A DNA stretch of 64,000 bases from Armatimonadota bacterium (GTDB lineage: Bacteria > Armatimonadota > Fimbriimonadia > Fimbriimonadales > Fimbriimonadaceae), in NCBI GenBank assembly GCA_016125185.1, contig WGMG01000006.1, positions 1,116,001 to 1,180,000 of the forward strand, in the 5' to 3' direction. Both the position numbers and the translations under genes were made by a program. Of the stretch, positions 9,278-47,260 are shown piece by piece. The notes under the pieces are model-generated. The model saw only the letters and a program-made list of their open reading frames with translations, did not search any database and was not told the origin of the DNA. Each line of letters starts with the position of its first letter. Positions within the stretch are counted from its first letter, which is position 1.

Positions 9278-10183
9278 ATGCCCAGACCCAACCCTTTTTT
9301 GCTCGTTACGATGCTATTCTGGGGTTTCAATTTCATTTCTTTGAAGGTTCTGTATCCCGTCATGGAGCCCGGGGCTATCATGTTCTGGCGCTACTTCGTG
9401 ATGGGGGGCGTGCTCGTCCTCGTTTGCAAGTTCACCGGACACTCGCTGAAGATTCCGACCGAGCACCGAAACCGTATCCTTTTTGCCGGACTCAACTCGA
9501 TGGGGATTTACATGATCCTCTTCATGGAAGGGGTGAAGTTCACCTATGCCGCTGAGGCGGCGATCATCCTGGCTTCGAACCCAATCATCGTGGCGATTTG
9601 GATGATGGTTCTGAAGCAGGAGCCGAAGTCGTACGCCAAAGTTTTGGGCGGGATCATCGCCCTCGGCGGTGTTGCGGTGGTCATCTTGGGTCGTCCCGGC
9701 ATGATGTCCGGCTCGGTGGATGCGCTCAACCGCATCAAGGGCGACCTATTGATGCTTCTTGGAGCGATCTCTTGGTCGTGGTCAGTAGTGCTGTGCAAAC
9801 CGATCTCCAGCGAGATCAAGCCTCTCCCGCTTTTCACCATGTCGATGCTGGGCGGTCTGCCTGTGATCTTTCTCTTCGGTTTGATGCCTGCTCTCCAGGT
9901 CCATTGGGGCGACCTTTCGCATTGGCAATGGGCGAACTTCGCGCAGATCTCGTTCGGCTCCGGCGTAATCGGCATGGTGTTCTATTACAAAGGCATCTCT
10001 CAGCTTCCGGCGAGTGTGGCGACCCTCCACCAGTTTTTGGTGCCGATTCTCGCGACCGGCTTCGCCTCTTTGGTCTTGGGTGAGCATCTAGCTTGGATTC
10101 AGGCAGGCGGGCTCTTGATCGTGATCGCAGGCGTCGCGGTTGCCAATGGTCTTATTCGCTCAACTCGAGCGATAGCGGCATAA
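9278..10183 (+). CDS. EamA/DMT superfamily transporter
   Basis: This 301-residue inner-membrane protein has ten predicted helices arranged as two EamA repeats, each of about 140 residues (the first begins PFLLVTMLFWGFNFISLKV, the second GDLLMLLGAISWSWSVVLC). Family members export amino acids, metabolites or drugs; the substrate cannot be read from the sequence. The start at 9278 is preferred over longer in-frame possibilities because those overlap the divergent secretion ATPase gene, and because a -10-like TACTAT sits 6 nt upstream. Confidence 0.88.
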   Translation: MPRPNPFLLVTMLFWGFNFISLKVLYPVMEPGAIMFWRYFVMGGVLVLVCKFTGHSLKIPTEHRNRILFAGLNSMGIYMILFMEGVKFTYAAEAAIILASNPIIVAIWMMVLKQEPKSYAKVLGGIIALGGVAVVILGRPGMMSGSVDALNRIKGDLLMLLGAISWSWSVVLCKPISSEIKPLPLFTMSMLGGLPVIFLFGLMPALQVHWGDLSHWQWANFAQISFGSGVIGMVFYYKGISQLPASVATLHQFLVPILATGFASLVLGEHLAWIQAGGLLIVIAGVAVANGLIRSTRAIAA

Positions 10184-10219: not shown

Positions 10220-10329
10220 TTTGTACAATTTATAGCAACTTTGTATAATGCGTGAACAACGGATGTACAAATGTCAATCGATTTGTACAATTCGAAGATT
10301 TTTGTACAATCACAGAGGATTTTGTACGA
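10220..10329. promoter_or_regulatory. Array of six TTGTACAA-type palindromes at about 20-bp spacing
   Basis: TTGTACAA occurs at 10221, 10283 and 10302, with one-base variants TTGTATAA at 10241, ATGTACAA at 10263 and TTGTACGA at 10322. Start-to-start distances are 20, 22, 20, 19 and 20 bp, about two helical turns, while the sequences between the sites are not conserved. The array lies in the 193-bp gap between the EamA gene and the PEP-CTERM gene at 10377. It looks like a set of phased operator sites, or less likely iterons. No regulator is assigned. Confidence 0.7.
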
Positions 10330-10376
10330 AATTAAGGCGGCCATCGAATGGCTGCTTTCTTTTTGAGAGAAAACAA

Positions 10377-11105
10377 ATGAACAAACTTTCTATCCTTTTG
10401 GCCGTCAGTGCGGCCTCAATCGGTACGGCCCAAGCCCAGACCATCGGCATCAACTTCTCGGGGGGCGGACTTTCGATGGGCTCAGGTGATGAACCCGGCG
10501 TCGTCAGCGGTGCCAACTGGAACAATCTCACGACCGGGAGCGGATCGGGCGTGGCGCTGATGGACAGCAGCGGTGCCATGACTTCCGCTTTACTGAGCTT
10601 CTCAGCGGCGGGAACCTATGACGAGTTCAATAAGCCGTCGACCGCCAACTCAGCTACAAACCGTCTTTACGGCGGTGGTCTTTATGGAGACCCAACGCAG
10701 GCCGAGATTCGAGTCTCCGTCTCCGGCATCACTTACGCCGACTACGACGTATACGTGTATGCATCCGCTGACACATCGCATACTAACACCCTGTCTATCT
10801 CTGATGGCTCGACGACCTTCTACTATGCTAGCCCGGGCAGTGTGAATTCAGGTGCGTCCAACCTCCTTCTGACAACAAGCACGTCGTCGGCTAGCCCGAC
10901 GGTCGGCAAGGCTCAATATCAGGTCTTCCACGAACATGGCTCTTCGTTCACGTTGAACACCTTCGGCTCAGCGGCTGGAGTTCTTAGCAACAATGTCTTT
11001 GGACTGCAGATCGTTGCGACGCCGGTCCCAGAACCAGCGAGCTTCGCCGTTCTTGGACTTGGAATTCTTCCCCTGGTGCGACGACGCAAGCGAAATCGCG
11101 TCTAA
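10377..11105 (+). CDS. PEP-CTERM sorting domain-containing secreted protein
   Basis: This 242-residue exported protein has a signal peptide (MNKLSILLAVSAASIGTAQA), a Ser/Gly/Thr-rich beta-sheet-like body and a C-terminal PEP-CTERM signal: VPEPASFAVLGLG followed by the hydrophobic stretch and RRRKRNR. Such proteins are processed by an exosortase and are usually exported to the envelope or extracellular matrix. No exosortase gene is present here. The ATG at 10377 is chosen because it directly begins the signal peptide; an in-frame upstream codon at 10248 would place coding sequence in the TTGTACAA array. The array and the downstream terminator suggest a separately controlled single-gene unit. 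Confidence 0.88.
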   Translation: MNKLSILLAVSAASIGTAQAQTIGINFSGGGLSMGSGDEPGVVSGANWNNLTTGSGSGVALMDSSGAMTSALLSFSAAGTYDEFNKPSTANSATNRLYGGGLYGDPTQAEIRVSVSGITYADYDVYVYASADTSHTNTLSISDGSTTFYYASPGSVNSGASNLLLTTSTSSASPTVGKAQYQVFHEHGSSFTLNTFGSAAGVLSNNVFGLQIVATPVPEPASFAVLGLGILPLVRRRKRNRV

Positions 11106-11127: not shown

Positions 11128-11166
11128 AGATGGAGCCAAGGTGTACGCCTTGGCTCCATCTCTTTT
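11128..11166 (+). terminator. Rho-independent terminator after the PEP-CTERM gene
   Basis: AGATGGAGCCAAGG (11128-11141) pairs perfectly with CCTTGGCTCCATCT (11148-11161) around a 6-nt loop and is followed by CTTTT. Confidence 0.85.
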
Positions 11167-11220: not shown

Positions 11221-11766
11221 ATGAATGAGTCTGAGACTCCGATTGAGGAAACCGTAAACCAAGAGGAAACCGCCGAAGCGGGAGCCGACCTGCTAGAGGG
11301 CGACCTTCAGCTTCTCGATGACCAAGTTTCCAAGCTCACGACCGAGAAAGAGCAGATTCACGAGCAGCTTCTGCGGACGATGGCCGACTTTCAGAACTTC
11401 CGAAAGCGGACCCAGCAGGAGCAGGGCCTGATTCGCCAGTATGCGACCGAGTCGCTGGTCCTCACGCTTCTGCCGGTCATGGACAATTTCGAGCGCACCG
11501 TTCGCGCCTCCGAGGCTGGCGCGCCGATCGAATCGCTGATCACCGGTGTTAAGGCCACCGAGAAGCAGTTCCGGTTCATCATCGAACAACAGGGCGTCTC
11601 GCGAATCGACTCGGTCGGCAAACCGTTCGATTCTGACCTGCATGAGGCCCTCGGCACGGTCGAGACCGACAAATATCCGTCGGACACTGTCGTCGAAGAG
11701 ATCGAGCCAGGTTACAAGATGGGTGAGAAGGTCATCCGTCACGCCAAAGTCCGCGTCGCGAAGTAA
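11221..11766 (+). CDS. grpE: Nucleotide exchange factor GrpE
   Basis: GrpE releases ADP from DnaK. The 181-residue product has an acidic N-terminal tail (residues 1-35), a long coiled coil with the characteristic LLRTMADFQNFRKRTQQEQ (about 51-69), and the C-terminal beta domain (VGKPFDSDLHEAL, then GYKMGEKVIRHAKVRVAK). The ATG at 11221 is the first sensible start after the upstream terminator. dnaK is not in the window, and the dnaJ-like gene is 34 kb away with its own repressor. A single CTTGAGT half-site occurs at 11184-11190, but no second half makes it a full HspR operator. It is followed 2 nt later by glmM. Confidence 0.95.
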   Translation: MNESETPIEETVNQEETAEAGADLLEGDLQLLDDQVSKLTTEKEQIHEQLLRTMADFQNFRKRTQQEQGLIRQYATESLVLTLLPVMDNFERTVRASEAGAPIESLITGVKATEKQFRFIIEQQGVSRIDSVGKPFDSDLHEALGTVETDKYPSDTVVEEIEPGYKMGEKVIRHAKVRVAK

Positions 11767-13174: not shown

Positions 13175-13936
13175 ATGCTCCTCGCGATTGACGTCGGAAA
13201 CAGCCACTCGGTGTTCGGTATCTGGGACGGCGCCCGTTGGATCGCCACTTGGCGGCACCAGACGGACGTCGAAACCACCGAAGACGAACTCGCGGCCTGG
13301 CTATTCGAAATGATGCGTGTGGCAGGGGTGACACAGAATCCGACGAAAGTAGCCTGCGCCAGCGTGGTGCCGGGCATGAACCGAAACCTGTCGCTCATGG
13401 CGAGCAAGTTCTTCGGCGTCGAAGTTGAATTCCTAACCGGATCGTCCAACCACGGCGTCGTGGTGGACTACAATCCGCCGACCGCGGTTGGAGCAGACCG
13501 CATCGCGAACGCAATAGGCGCCTTGGCTCGGTACTCCGCGCCGATCATCGTGGTCGACTTTGGCACTGCCACCACCTTCGATGTGATCGATGCCAACAGC
13601 GTTTACGCCGGTGGTGCGATCATGGCTGGCCCGATGACCTCCATGCAGGCGTTGGCGAATAAGACGGCCAAACTGCCCGCTATCGACCTGGTCGCACCGG
13701 AAACCGCAATAGGGAAACATACGACGCACTCGATACAGAGCGGCGTGATGTTCGGCTACGCCGGGGCCATCGACGCGATTGTGCGAAGGATTGAAGGCGA
13801 GCTTGGCTCGAAGCCTAAGGTCATCGCGACGGGCGGCCTCGGAGAAATCTTCACCCAGATGTGCGAGACCATCGAGAGCTACGACGCGATGCTCACCCTC
13901 GATGGAGTCAGGCTGTACGCTGAGAAAGCTATTTAG
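13175..13936 (+). CDS. coaX: Type III pantothenate kinase
   Basis: CoaX phosphorylates pantothenate in the first step of coenzyme A synthesis, using an ASKHA fold that is not feedback-inhibited by CoA. The 253-residue protein shows the phosphate-1 motif MLLAIDVGNSHSVFGIW (catalytic Asp6), PTAVGADRIANAIGA (about 104-118), the phosphate-2 motif VVDFGTATTFDVI and the adenosine segment IATGGLGEIF. It lies 23 nt after glmM and ends in an 8-nt convergent overlap with the cytochrome gene that follows. Confidence 0.96.
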   Translation: MLLAIDVGNSHSVFGIWDGARWIATWRHQTDVETTEDELAAWLFEMMRVAGVTQNPTKVACASVVPGMNRNLSLMASKFFGVEVEFLTGSSNHGVVVDYNPPTAVGADRIANAIGALARYSAPIIVVDFGTATTFDVIDANSVYAGGAIMAGPMTSMQALANKTAKLPAIDLVAPETAIGKHTTHSIQSGVMFGYAGAIDAIVRRIEGELGSKPKVIATGGLGEIFTQMCETIESYDAMLTLDGVRLYAEKAI

Positions 13937-14696
13937 CGTTCGAGATCAGCGCCGCCACGTAACCGATCGGCTTGCCTTTCTCGATGTTGCTGTGGCACTT
14001 GTAGCACGAATTCACGCTCGCATGGACCGCTTTCGCCACAATCCACGCGTCCTTGCCGTTGATCGAAACTTTCTGTGTGTCTTCCTCGACGCCCTTGCGA
14101 CGGATATCGATAGCGAACTGCTCCAGCGCCTTCGATTCGTTCTCCCATCGAGTGTTCGACTGGTCCGTGCCGTCGTCGTAGTTCGGCATGACATAGTGCA
14201 CATCGCTGAGGCGAATCTGAGAGAGGGGAGAAGAGTCGGCCCTGACGCCGTTCTCTGTTTCGACTTCGAGATCCTTTGCGCCCTTTTGAACCGGTTGAAG
14301 TCCAAGCACCGCCGACCGAATATGCACTTCTCCATCGAGGGAGCGAATGGCATCGTAGGCGGTCAAATCTTCAGAGTCCTTGCCGTGAAGTGTCGGGATG
14401 CGGTCACTGCCGAACACGCCGTCGCGAGGCGGGGTCTGGAGGAACTTCCGCATCGCATCGATATAGTTCTCGATATCTTCCTGATGGGGCGCAACGGGAG
14501 GGGCTTCCTTCGAATCGGCCTTGCTCAACTCCTTGGAAAGCTTCTCGAACTTCTCCTTCAAATGAGAGTCCACTTTCTTGCTTTCCATTTTTGGCGCGAC
14601 GGCGCGACTGAGGGTTGCGTAACTGATCGCGGCGGCGACGCCCACGAATCCCAGCGAGAGAACGGCGATGCTCAACTTCGATTTGATGATTTTCAC
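13929..14696 (-). CDS. DUF3365 (Tll0287-like) c-type heme protein, copy 3 of a tandem trio
   Basis: This 255-residue exported protein begins with an uncleaved or cleaved signal helix (KLSIAVLSLGFVGVAAAISYA), has a middle PAS-like region and ends with the single heme motif CYKCH followed by GKPIGYVAALISN. The architecture matches the DUF3365/Tll0287-like family of extracytoplasmic single-heme proteins, thought to be redox or ligand sensors. It is the last gene of three head-to-tail paralogues (about 2 nt from its upstream neighbour), so they probably form one transcript. The acidic, Lys-rich linker at residues 38-60 is unique to this copy. Confidence 0.82.
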   Translation of the reverse strand: MKIIKSKLSIAVLSLGFVGVAAAISYATLSRAVAPKMESKKVDSHLKEKFEKLSKELSKADSKEAPPVAPHQEDIENYIDAMRKFLQTPPRDGVFGSDRIPTLHGKDSEDLTAYDAIRSLDGEVHIRSAVLGLQPVQKGAKDLEVETENGVRADSSPLSQIRLSDVHYVMPNYDDGTDQSNTRWENESKALEQFAIDIRRKGVEEDTQKVSINGKDAWIVAKAVHASVNSCYKCHSNIEKGKPIGYVAALISNAK

Positions 14697-14698
14697 GG

Positions 14699-15445
14699 CT
14701 ACTTCTTCTTGATCAGGAAGGTCATAACATGCCCAATGGGCTTGCCATATTTGATGTCGCTATGACAGTTATAACACGACTTTTCCTTCGGTGTGATCGA
14801 CTTTATGAGCACCCATCCATCTTTCCCGTTAACGGTCACCTTGTCGGAGTAGGTTTCGTAGTCTTTGTGGTCAAGTTTGTTGGATAGTTGAACCACCAAA
14901 CGCCCGACATCAGCGGCCAAAGCCTTCAAACCTTCCTTTCTCACTTTCGTATCGGTTGGCTTTACCGATCGGTCAAAGGCGAGCCCCGTCATGGTTGGAT
15001 TGAACCAGTCACCTTCGTCATAGAGCCGCATGAAACAGGTCGCGCGAACATTCGGATCCTTGAGGAAGTCCGGCGGCAACTTGGTTAGCAGGTCAACCAT
15101 TTTCCCCGTGTCTCCCCCAATATGATCTGGCTTTTTCGGTTCCTTCTTCTCTCGGCTTTCGATCAGCGAATAGACTCGGTAGTCCTTGGTGAGGTCCTTA
15201 ATCTCTTGGTAACCTTCGACTTGATGGGCAAAGACAAGGTGGATCGACGGAGCACGATTGCTGCCAAAGCGGCCGTCGGTGGGTTGCTCTAGCAGACTCT
15301 TTTGCACAGCCGCAGTGTAGGTCTCGATGACCTTGTCATGAGGAAAGGACACAGTCTTGGTGGAGGCGTCGCCCGATAACCTAACCGCCGCCAAGCCACC
15401 GCCGGTCAAAGTAACGAATCCGATCAATAAAGTTGTGGGTTTCAT
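14699..15445 (-). CDS. DUF3365 (Tll0287-like) c-type heme protein, copy 2
   Basis: This 248-residue paralogue of its two neighbours shares the layout: signal sequence (MKPTTLLIGFVTLTGGGLAAV), a segment beginning VSFPHDKVIETYTAAV, the conserved GRFGSNRAPSIH, and the C-terminal heme motif CYNCH followed by KYGKPIGHVMTFL. The heme would be attached outside the cytoplasm. It sits between the other two copies with gaps of 2 and 9 nt. Which electron donor or ligand it serves cannot be told. Confidence 0.82.
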   Translation of the reverse strand: MKPTTLLIGFVTLTGGGLAAVRLSGDASTKTVSFPHDKVIETYTAAVQKSLLEQPTDGRFGSNRAPSIHLVFAHQVEGYQEIKDLTKDYRVYSLIESREKKEPKKPDHIGGDTGKMVDLLTKLPPDFLKDPNVRATCFMRLYDEGDWFNPTMTGLAFDRSVKPTDTKVRKEGLKALAADVGRLVVQLSNKLDHKDYETYSDKVTVNGKDGWVLIKSITPKEKSCYNCHSDIKYGKPIGHVMTFLIKKK

Positions 15446-15454
15446 CTAGGTCTC

Positions 15455-16174
15455 CTAAGGTGCTTTTTCGATCAGAGCTGCCATCACATAACCGATGGGC
15501 TGACCTTCTTTGATGTTGGTGTGACAGGAGTAGCACGTCTTGTCGCTCGCCCGCACCGCTTTCGCCATGAGCCAAGCGTGATGACCTGCAACATCAAACG
15601 ACGTCGAGTAGTCCTCGTAGTCTTCTTTCATGCACTCGGCATCGAGGTCGGTGACTCGCTTTCGGACTTCGGCGGCGATGGTCTGCGATTCTTGACGTCG
15701 GTCTGCGCCTTCGAGGAAGGTCATGTGCACCGGCGTCACGCGGTAGTGGGGAACTTGCCCAAGGAATCGTCCTTCTTTGGCCGACTTTTCGTAAGCCGCG
15801 ATGACCTCATCGGGCATTTTGCCTACTACAAACGAATTGATCATGTACTTGTCCGCGGCGAGATCCTGAACCTCTTTATAGCCCGGAATTTTCTCTCCCG
15901 TCGCACCGTGCAAGGTCGGCACCCGGCTAGCCCCAAACAGCCCGTTTCGAGGGGGAACTAGCATAAAGCTTCGCACTGAGGTGAGATAGGTGTCGATGTC
16001 TTTGTCGTGAGCGAACTTGACGGTCTTCGACTTCTTTTCGCCCGAAGTTTTGTGGTTCTTATCCAAGTCTCCATCGCCGCGCGGCACGCTGGTGGCATAC
16101 GTTAGCGAACAAATGGATGCGACCAATGTGGCCGATATTCCCCAAAACGCGATTTTCGATGTATAAGGCTTCAT
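15455..16174 (-). CDS. DUF3365 (Tll0287-like) c-type heme protein, copy 1
   Basis: This is the first gene of the cytochrome trio, 239 residues from the ATG at 16174. A GTG four codons upstream (16186) is an alternative. It has a signal peptide (KPYTSKIAFWGISATLVASI), the shared NGLFGASRVPTLHG segment, and the heme motif CYSCH followed by KEGQPIGYVMAALIE. The three copies share their start, middle and end blocks but differ widely elsewhere, consistent with old tandem duplication and functional divergence. The VanZ-like gene upstream is on the same strand. Confidence 0.82.
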   Translation of the reverse strand: MKPYTSKIAFWGISATLVASICSLTYATSVPRGDGDLDKNHKTSGEKKSKTVKFAHDKDIDTYLTSVRSFMLVPPRNGLFGASRVPTLHGATGEKIPGYKEVQDLAADKYMINSFVVGKMPDEVIAAYEKSAKEGRFLGQVPHYRVTPVHMTFLEGADRRQESQTIAAEVRKRVTDLDAECMKEDYEDYSTSFDVAGHHAWLMAKAVRASDKTCYSCHTNIKEGQPIGYVMAALIEKAP

Positions 16175-16219
16175 CGCAATCCCCACTTACACGAAACGGA
16201 CGCGCCAGTTACTCGCTAG

Positions 16220-45924: not shown

Positions 45925-45944
45925 TAATTGAGCGTTTGACCATC

Positions 45945-46859
45945 ATGGCGGACTACTACCAAGTGCTCGGCGTCGCCCGAGGAGCGGACGAAAAAGAGAT
46001 CAAATCGGCTTATCGTAAGCTGGCGAGAAAGTATCACCCCGACGTGAATCCAGGCGATAAGAAGTCGGAAGCCAAGTTCAAAGAGGTCAGCGAAGCCTAC
46101 GAAGTACTCAGCGATTCTGACAAGCGGAAGCTGTACGATCAGTACGGCAGTCAGTGGGAGCACGCCAAGCAGGTTCAGGACCAGGGCGGCGACGTGGACT
46201 TTGGCAATGTCGGCTTTTCCAACATGGGTGGATTCGGCTCTATCTTCGAGCAGTTTTTCGGTGGCGGCCAGCAAGGCGGATTCCGAATCCAGGACATGGA
46301 GGCCTCACAGCCGCGAGACATCGAGCGAGAAATCGAACTTTCGCTCTCCGATGTCGATACTGGCTGTACGAGAACCCTAACCTATCAAACAATGGACGCC
46401 CAGCAGACTCGTGGCCAGATCGCCACGGTGCCGACAACAAAGAAGGTCGAGGTCAAGATTCCGGCGGGCATCGGCGACGGCAAAAAGCTTCGGGTTCCCA
46501 GCAAGGGCCACGCGGGCATCGGTGGAAAGGCGGGAGACCTTTATGTTGTCATCCGATGGGCCAAGCATCCGCAGTTCAAACCAGTCGGCGAAAATTTGGA
46601 GGTCGAGGTTCCCGTCTCCTTCGCGACGGCGGCGCTCGGTGGTGAAATTTCGATTCCGACGCTTCGCAAGAACGTCACGATGAAGATTCCGGCGGGCTCC
46701 CAATCGGGCCAAATGTTCCGGCTAGCCAACCAGGGCATTACCAAACTTGGCGGCGGTAAGGGCGACCTAATGGCTCGCCTAAAGGTCACAGTGCCGAAAC
46801 ATCTAACGCAGGAACAGCGCGACCTGCTGACGCGATTTCAGCAAACGGAGAAAGCATGA
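45945..46859 (+). CDS. DnaJ/CbpA-type J-domain co-chaperone
   Basis: This 304-residue co-chaperone stimulates DnaK-type ATPases. The J-domain spans residues 1-70 ([20 protein letters not shown], catalytic HPD at 31-33, [20 protein letters not shown]), a short Gly/Phe-rich linker follows, and the C-terminal substrate-binding domains include [20 protein letters not shown] and [19 protein letters not shown]. The zinc-finger cysteine repeats of class I DnaJ are absent, so it is a CbpA-like class II protein. It is followed with a 4-nt overlap by hspR and preceded by a HAIR site. Confidence 0.95.
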
Positions 46860-47260
46860 GACACGAAAACCAGCCAGTGTATATGATCGGAGTGGCGGCA
46901 CAATTGTGCAACGTCCACCCGCAGACTCTGCGCCAGTACGAGCGTCTTGGCCTCGTGATCCCTTCGAGAGTCGGCGCAAAGAACCGGCTTTACTCGGAGC
47001 TCGATATTCTCCGTGTTCGACGCATCCAGAGGCTGACCCAAGAGCTGGGCGTGAACCTCGCCGGTGTCGAGATCATCCTTCGCCTCCTCGACGACATGGA
47101 GGAGATGCGAACCGACATGGAAAAGCAGTTGGCGGACTATGTTGAAGAAGCCGAAAAGCGGATCACGTCGATGATGGAGAACCGAAACATCCTGCTTCGC
47201 AAGGACGAATCGCTCCTGCCTGTTCCCAATATCAAGATACGGAAATCGGCCCAGTTGTAG
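46856..47260 (+). CDS. hspR: HspR-type MerR-family heat-shock repressor
   Basis: This 134-residue MerR-family regulator has the HspR signature: [30 protein letters not shown] near the N-terminus, then [20 protein letters not shown] and [13 protein letters not shown], followed by a coiled-coil dimerisation helix. HspR represses chaperone genes through HAIR sites, often with DnaK as co-repressor. Its position after dnaJ and behind a HAIR site indicates autoregulation. Its last 29 nt overlap the convergent symporter gene. Confidence 0.93.

Follow-up and report, generated by a model that had tools for sequence, protein, structure and literature searches.

The window, by which we mean the whole stretch of 64,000 nucleotides that was analysed, contains an array of short palindromes in the intergenic region between a transporter gene and a gene for a PEP-CTERM surface protein. 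The genes and hairpins around the array are as follows.

9278 to 10183, + strand: eamA, encoding an EamA-family transporter, upstream of the array and co-directional
10334 to 10358, + strand: terminator-like leader hairpin of 11 pairs with loop CGA, followed by CTTTTT, just 5' of the ribosome-binding region
10377 to 11105, + strand: PEP-CTERM surface protein gene, 242 aa (PF07589, 21.9 bits against a cut-off of 20.7)
11128 to 11165, + strand: strong terminator-like hairpin in the gap between the PEP-CTERM gene and grpE, 15 pairs then TCTTTT (z -6.5)
11224 to 11766, + strand: grpE, the downstream gene

The 242-aa protein has a signal-peptide-like start, a body without a named domain, and the C-terminal sequence VPEPASFAVLGLGILPLVRRRKR. 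Since eamA is co-directional and no divergent gene is present, the PEP-CTERM gene is the sole adjacent target; the divergent neighbour that an earlier, sequence-only reading of this DNA had offered as a second possible target does not exist, as eamA and the PEP-CTERM gene both lie on the + strand. Elsewhere in the window, positions 13929-16186 of the - strand encode three tandem related small proteins with signal-like starts and a C-terminal CxxCH haem-binding motif, and positions 45936-47260 hold a DnaJ-like gene and, after it, a MerR regulator of the HspR-like type.

The array spans 10221-10329: TTGTACAA occurs in it six times, three times exactly and three times with a single mismatch, at successive distances of 20, 22, 20, 19 and 20 bp. 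Number, quality and spacing of the sites are those that the sequence-only reading had reported, and that observation is confirmed.

10221 to 10228: site 1, TTGTACAA, exact; overlaps the -35-like hexamer of P1, the candidate promoter listed next
10221 to 10249, + strand: candidate sigma-70-like promoter P1, TTGTAC-17-TATAAT, a consensus match only
10241 to 10248: site 2, TTGTATAA, one mismatch; overlaps the TATAAT -10-like hexamer of P1 (10244-10249)
10263 to 10270: site 3, ATGTACAA, one mismatch
10283 to 10290: site 4, TTGTACAA, exact
10302 to 10309: site 5, TTGTACAA, exact; would supply the -35 for P2, a weak alternative promoter
10322 to 10329: site 6, TTGTACGA, one mismatch

Across the six sites T, G, T, A and the final A are invariant and C is present in five, which leaves a sharp 8-bp core flanked by T-rich, non-palindromic bases. 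The spacers are mutually unrelated, with 4-6 of about 12 bases in common, and Tandem Repeats Finder called no tandem repeat in the array; both results speak against a tandem duplicated repeat. Helical phasing, a further element of the earlier reading, is approximate: neighbouring sites keep to about two turns, but at 10.5 bp per turn the cumulative phase of sites 1 to 6 runs 0, -34, 0, -34, -103 and -137 degrees, so that it is lost along the full array.

Clustering and spacing both depart from chance. Shuffling the intergenic region 5000 times with dinucleotides preserved never gave more than three sites with one mismatch or fewer, and when six sites were placed at random over 101 bp, only 76 of 400,000 placements had all five gaps within 19-22 bp. 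As a control for post hoc choice of the motif, all 256 eight-base palindromes were scanned across the 64 kb window, and the TTGTACAA array was the sole cluster of at least five sites within 110 bp; post hoc choice therefore does not explain it. With non-chance clustering and spacing, unrelated spacers and a sharp core, the sites resemble selected, separate protein-binding palindromes rather than copies of a duplicated repeat, as had been proposed. Repeated palindromes, regular spacing, unrelated spacers and a place in a promoter region are what a multi-site operator array presents, and all four are found here.

Promoter positions at the array are predicted from consensus matches. The best sigma-70-like match lies over sites 1 and 2 (TGTACA-16-TATAAT in the scan output, 10/12 matches) and corresponds to P1, with sites 3-6 just 3' of the expected P1 start. 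We consider it somewhat more probable than all other readings together that the sites form a private cooperative operator array for a dimeric regulator, placed before one PEP-CTERM gene and over its best sigma-70-like promoter. A dimeric DNA-binding regulator would recognise the 8-bp palindrome, and six copies about two helical turns apart could support cooperative binding of dimers over some 110 bp upstream of the gene. The likeliest mode would be sharp cooperative repression, released by a signal; repression is also the simplest to propose, given that sites 1 and 2 fall on the probable -35 and -10 of P1. Alternatively, sites 1-4 may activate a weaker promoter at sites 5-6.

The main rival to an operator is a chain of overlapping tandem promoters, in which each repeat would serve as the -10 (TANAAT) of one promoter and the -35 (TTG) of the next, so that TTGTANAAT recurring at 20 bp yields a TTGNNN-17-TANAAT series running toward the PEP-CTERM gene. 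A step of about 20 bp is also what sigma-70 -35/-10 geometry predicts, since it leaves 17-bp spacers; a T follows four of the six sites (TTGTACAAT); sites 1/2 and 3/4 come up as sigma-70-like in the promoter scan; and a look-alike pair, TTGAAC-17-TATAAT, occurs elsewhere in this genome between a GntR gene and cysD. Such a chain nevertheless leaves unexplained why sites 3 and 6 lack the T, why one gap is 22 bp, and above all why position 6 is C in five of six sites where TATAAT would be preferred, whereas the palindrome accounts for this C as the mirror of the conserved G. On balance we regard tandem promoters as unlikely, though the strongest of the competing explanations.

The transcribed leader deserves separate attention. 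Many PEP-CTERM genes of this genome carry a hairpin just 5' of the ribosome-binding region (for example at loci L088, L114 and L120), and the mean folding z is -0.88 over 63 PEP-CTERM leaders, compared with -0.16 over 47 other genes (p 0.0026). The hairpin at 10334-10358 is the most stable among the 63 (z -4.8 against shuffles). The leader from 10256 to 10385 folds better than all 200 of its shuffles (z -4.45), in a fold where site 3 pairs with 4, site 5 pairs with 6, and the 10334-10358 hairpin is present. The array might act in RNA: sites 3/4 and 5/6 would form two hairpins that precede the terminator-like one, as an attenuator or mRNA-stability structure. However, a strong leader fold follows automatically from repeated palindromes, RNA pairing requires neither palindromic sites nor six identical ones, transcription from P1 would leave sites 1 and 2 out of the leader, and a search against Rfam returned no family match. 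We judge RNA-level control improbable. That all six sites share one palindrome favours an operator, because neither RNA hairpins nor promoter hexamers need one.

How far does the array extend beyond this gene? Genome-wide statements here draw on pattern searches, family searches and retrieved stretches. The genome has 64 PEP-CTERM genes, and the upstream 250 bp of the other 63 were compared (one with just 47 bp available): none (0/63) carries the array, and even with one mismatch allowed no region shows more than a single site. A PEP-CTERM-wide operator or general regulatory element, which the sequence-only reading had suggested looking for, is thereby rejected. So is a genome-wide regulon: exact TTGTACAA occurs 29 times versus 46 for the reversed control, 25 of the 26 copies outside the array lie within ORFs, and only four copies in the genome are non-ORF, three of them in the array. 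A search for further clusters with about 20-bp spacing found no second array of three TGTAY in the genome, none comparable in 60 relatives and, among 290 further genomes from the phylum, no comparable array of three exact TGTACA; no second target promoter for a TTGTACAA regulator was found in the genome. Being unique in its genome and in the relatives examined, the array is read as a local switch and not as a signal that controls PEP-CTERM genes at large. The sequence-only reading is, as a whole, partly supported.

Other candidate sites were followed up. A second pair at G000:C6:888844 turned out to be a GC-rich hairpin plus a nearby chance site. A GntR/LacI-type regulator gene at about 300500-301700 of G000:C1, whose promoter carries TTGAACAA and TTGTATAA at a distance of 20 bp, first seemed autoregulatory; it was ruled out because the pair reads as a plain promoter (TTGAAC-17-TATAAT) and the upstream regions of its orthologs hold no comparable array. 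In a relative of the same order, the intergenic stretch G042:C11:438495-438543 (L048, L122) carries TTCGAAGATTTTTGT and GAGGATTTTGTAC, both of which occur in the array in the opposite order. By a rough estimate chance is an unlikely source of this sharing; the genes around the two loci differ and no shared function was found.

Arrays of similar palindromes were also sought more widely, as three TTGTACA at 18-22 bp in GTDB genomes, and among the matches listed three classes are useful. The first comprises gammaproteobacterial promoters (L173, L186) of a gene that we take to be DUF523/YbgA-like. The second is positions 4825-4892 of L210 from Enterococcus avium, where CTTGTACA-like sites at 20-bp steps stand directly 5' of GntR-family and aldolase-like genes, which looks like an autoregulatory operator array. 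The third is made up of many, mostly intergenic arrays in Bacteroidota, with three to five TTGTACAA-like TGTACA palindromes at an exact 22-bp period (89 of 90 neighbouring pairs in the retrieved loci). These loci are L163, L190, L216 and L217 (Bacteroides luti); L174, L194, L196, L203, L205, L229 and L235; L161, L167, L170, L178, L179 and L182; L171, L202, L204, L211 and L225; L180, L206, L241, L253 and L259; and L198 and L245. In three Bacteroidota genomes, TGTACA pairs at 18-24 bp number 218, 163 and 95, against 14, 1 and 2 for the reversed-pattern control; we found no description of these 22-bp-period arrays in the literature consulted. Dense TTGTACAA clusters with 9-, 10-, 18- and 19-bp steps were further seen in Nitrospirales/Nitrospira (L165, L166, L175, L181, L209; three loci from one genome).

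The Bacteroidota arrays resemble the present one in having TTGTACAA-like palindromes two turns apart in intergenic DNA. They differ in their exact 22-bp period, in spacers that are related and partly palindromic, and in occurring in many copies per genome, whereas here a single array has steps of 20, 22, 20, 19 and 20 bp. The arrays in other bacteria show recurrence, not a common protein: two-turn TGTACA arrays turn up across unrelated bacteria, whether in light regulation of the LitR type or as the interspersed repeats of Bacteroidota. It would be a long shot to go further and propose a regulator new to the phylum that forms a phased filament or wrap on the six palindromes, works as an all-or-none switch of one PEP-CTERM protein destined for export, and is one member of a broader class, so far undescribed, that reads two-turn TTGTACAA arrays, including those of Bacteroidota.

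The history of the locus bears on a further alternative. In five relatives (G005, G006, G007, G012, G019) grpE lies close to eamA and the PEP-CTERM gene has no match there, so that the gene and its array look like a lineage-specific insertion. No ortholog of the gene was recognised, and the grpE neighbourhoods retrieved from 19 members of the genus contained no match; for want of a recognised ortholog, the array has no phylogenetic footprint. A mobile element could have brought the gene between eamA and grpE, the array being its remnant or a cluster of binding sites for its transposase, recombinase or replication protein. The position of gene and array between two otherwise close neighbours, the missing ortholog and the existence of two-turn TGTACA arrays as interspersed repeats in Bacteroidota are consistent with such an origin. 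Yet neither a transposase nor terminal repeats were noticed at the locus, a plasmid collection held no similar DNA, the phage match was weak and insignificant, and the array, unlike those of Bacteroidota, is single-copy with unrelated spacers. (Most viral contigs with three TTGTACAA proved to be coding or tandem-repeat sequence.) We give a mobile element little credence, about as much as control in the RNA.

The array is real, private to its lineage, operator-like and probably functional. For an operator count its place in the upstream region of the gene and over the best promoter match; against it count the phase drift, the missing phylogenetic footprint and the fact that neither a regulator gene nor a second target promoter was found. 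If the operator interpretation is right, six very short palindromes packed into a dense array would govern a PEP-CTERM surface protein of a lineage that has been little studied, which we take to be Fimbriimonadales-like Armatimonadota, and the array would be a clean bait with which to isolate the regulator.

Comparison with known regulators helps to place such an operator. A literature word search for TTGTACAA led only to unrelated plant work. AraR, a GntR-family regulator of Bacillus subtilis, is similar in its TTGTAC-type half sites and its cooperative binding to in-phase operators (PMC4218819), and differs in its 16-bp At(T/A)tGTaCGTAcaa(A/T)T box and in having no more than two operators per promoter; before the GntR genes of our genome, no array-like sites were found except one pair, explained as a plain promoter. 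CarH/CarA of Thermus, Bacillus and Myxococcales is a cooperative oligomeric repressor with repeated sites over -35 and -10 and a TnnACA core (PMC9304148). Its sites are tandem 11-bp direct repeats (nnnnTnnACAn), whereas the palindromes here are separate and 19-22 bp apart, and the sequence 11 bp past site 1, at 10233, is TAGCAA rather than TnnACA.

In Pseudomonas, the class II LitR proteins PplR1/PmlR2 bind TGTACA-N12-TGTACA at -35 and between the start site and the ATG, and binding is abolished when both TGTACA are mutated (PMC9758184). An operator for a LitR/CarH-type (MerR, B12-related) photoregulator would fit multiple TGTACA pairs over one promoter, and TGTACA is compatible with the CarH TnnACA motif; the Stutzerimonas (L173) and Thalassolituus (L186) arrays, at about N13-16 and 5' of the DUF523/YbgA-like gene, point the same way, with a MerR-type gene adjoining in L173. 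The spacers here, however, are N14, N16, N14, N13 and N14 instead of N12, and the only MerR-like matches in the genome, namely an HspR-like gene, a short gene and a MerR whose effector part is different, include nothing that resembles LitR/CarH. As the genome is rated 96% complete and no such gene was found in it, a LitR/CarH operator is mostly refuted, and we hold it to be the least probable of the alternatives by far. Class II LitR operators are the nearest tested precedent for the array: both have TGTACA palindromes about two turns apart, in more than one pair per promoter, over the -35, a predicted one in our case, and the leader (PMC9758184), with N12 pairs there and six sites at N13-16 before a PEP-CTERM target here, and this precedent for TGTACA pairs as operators favours reading the array as one.
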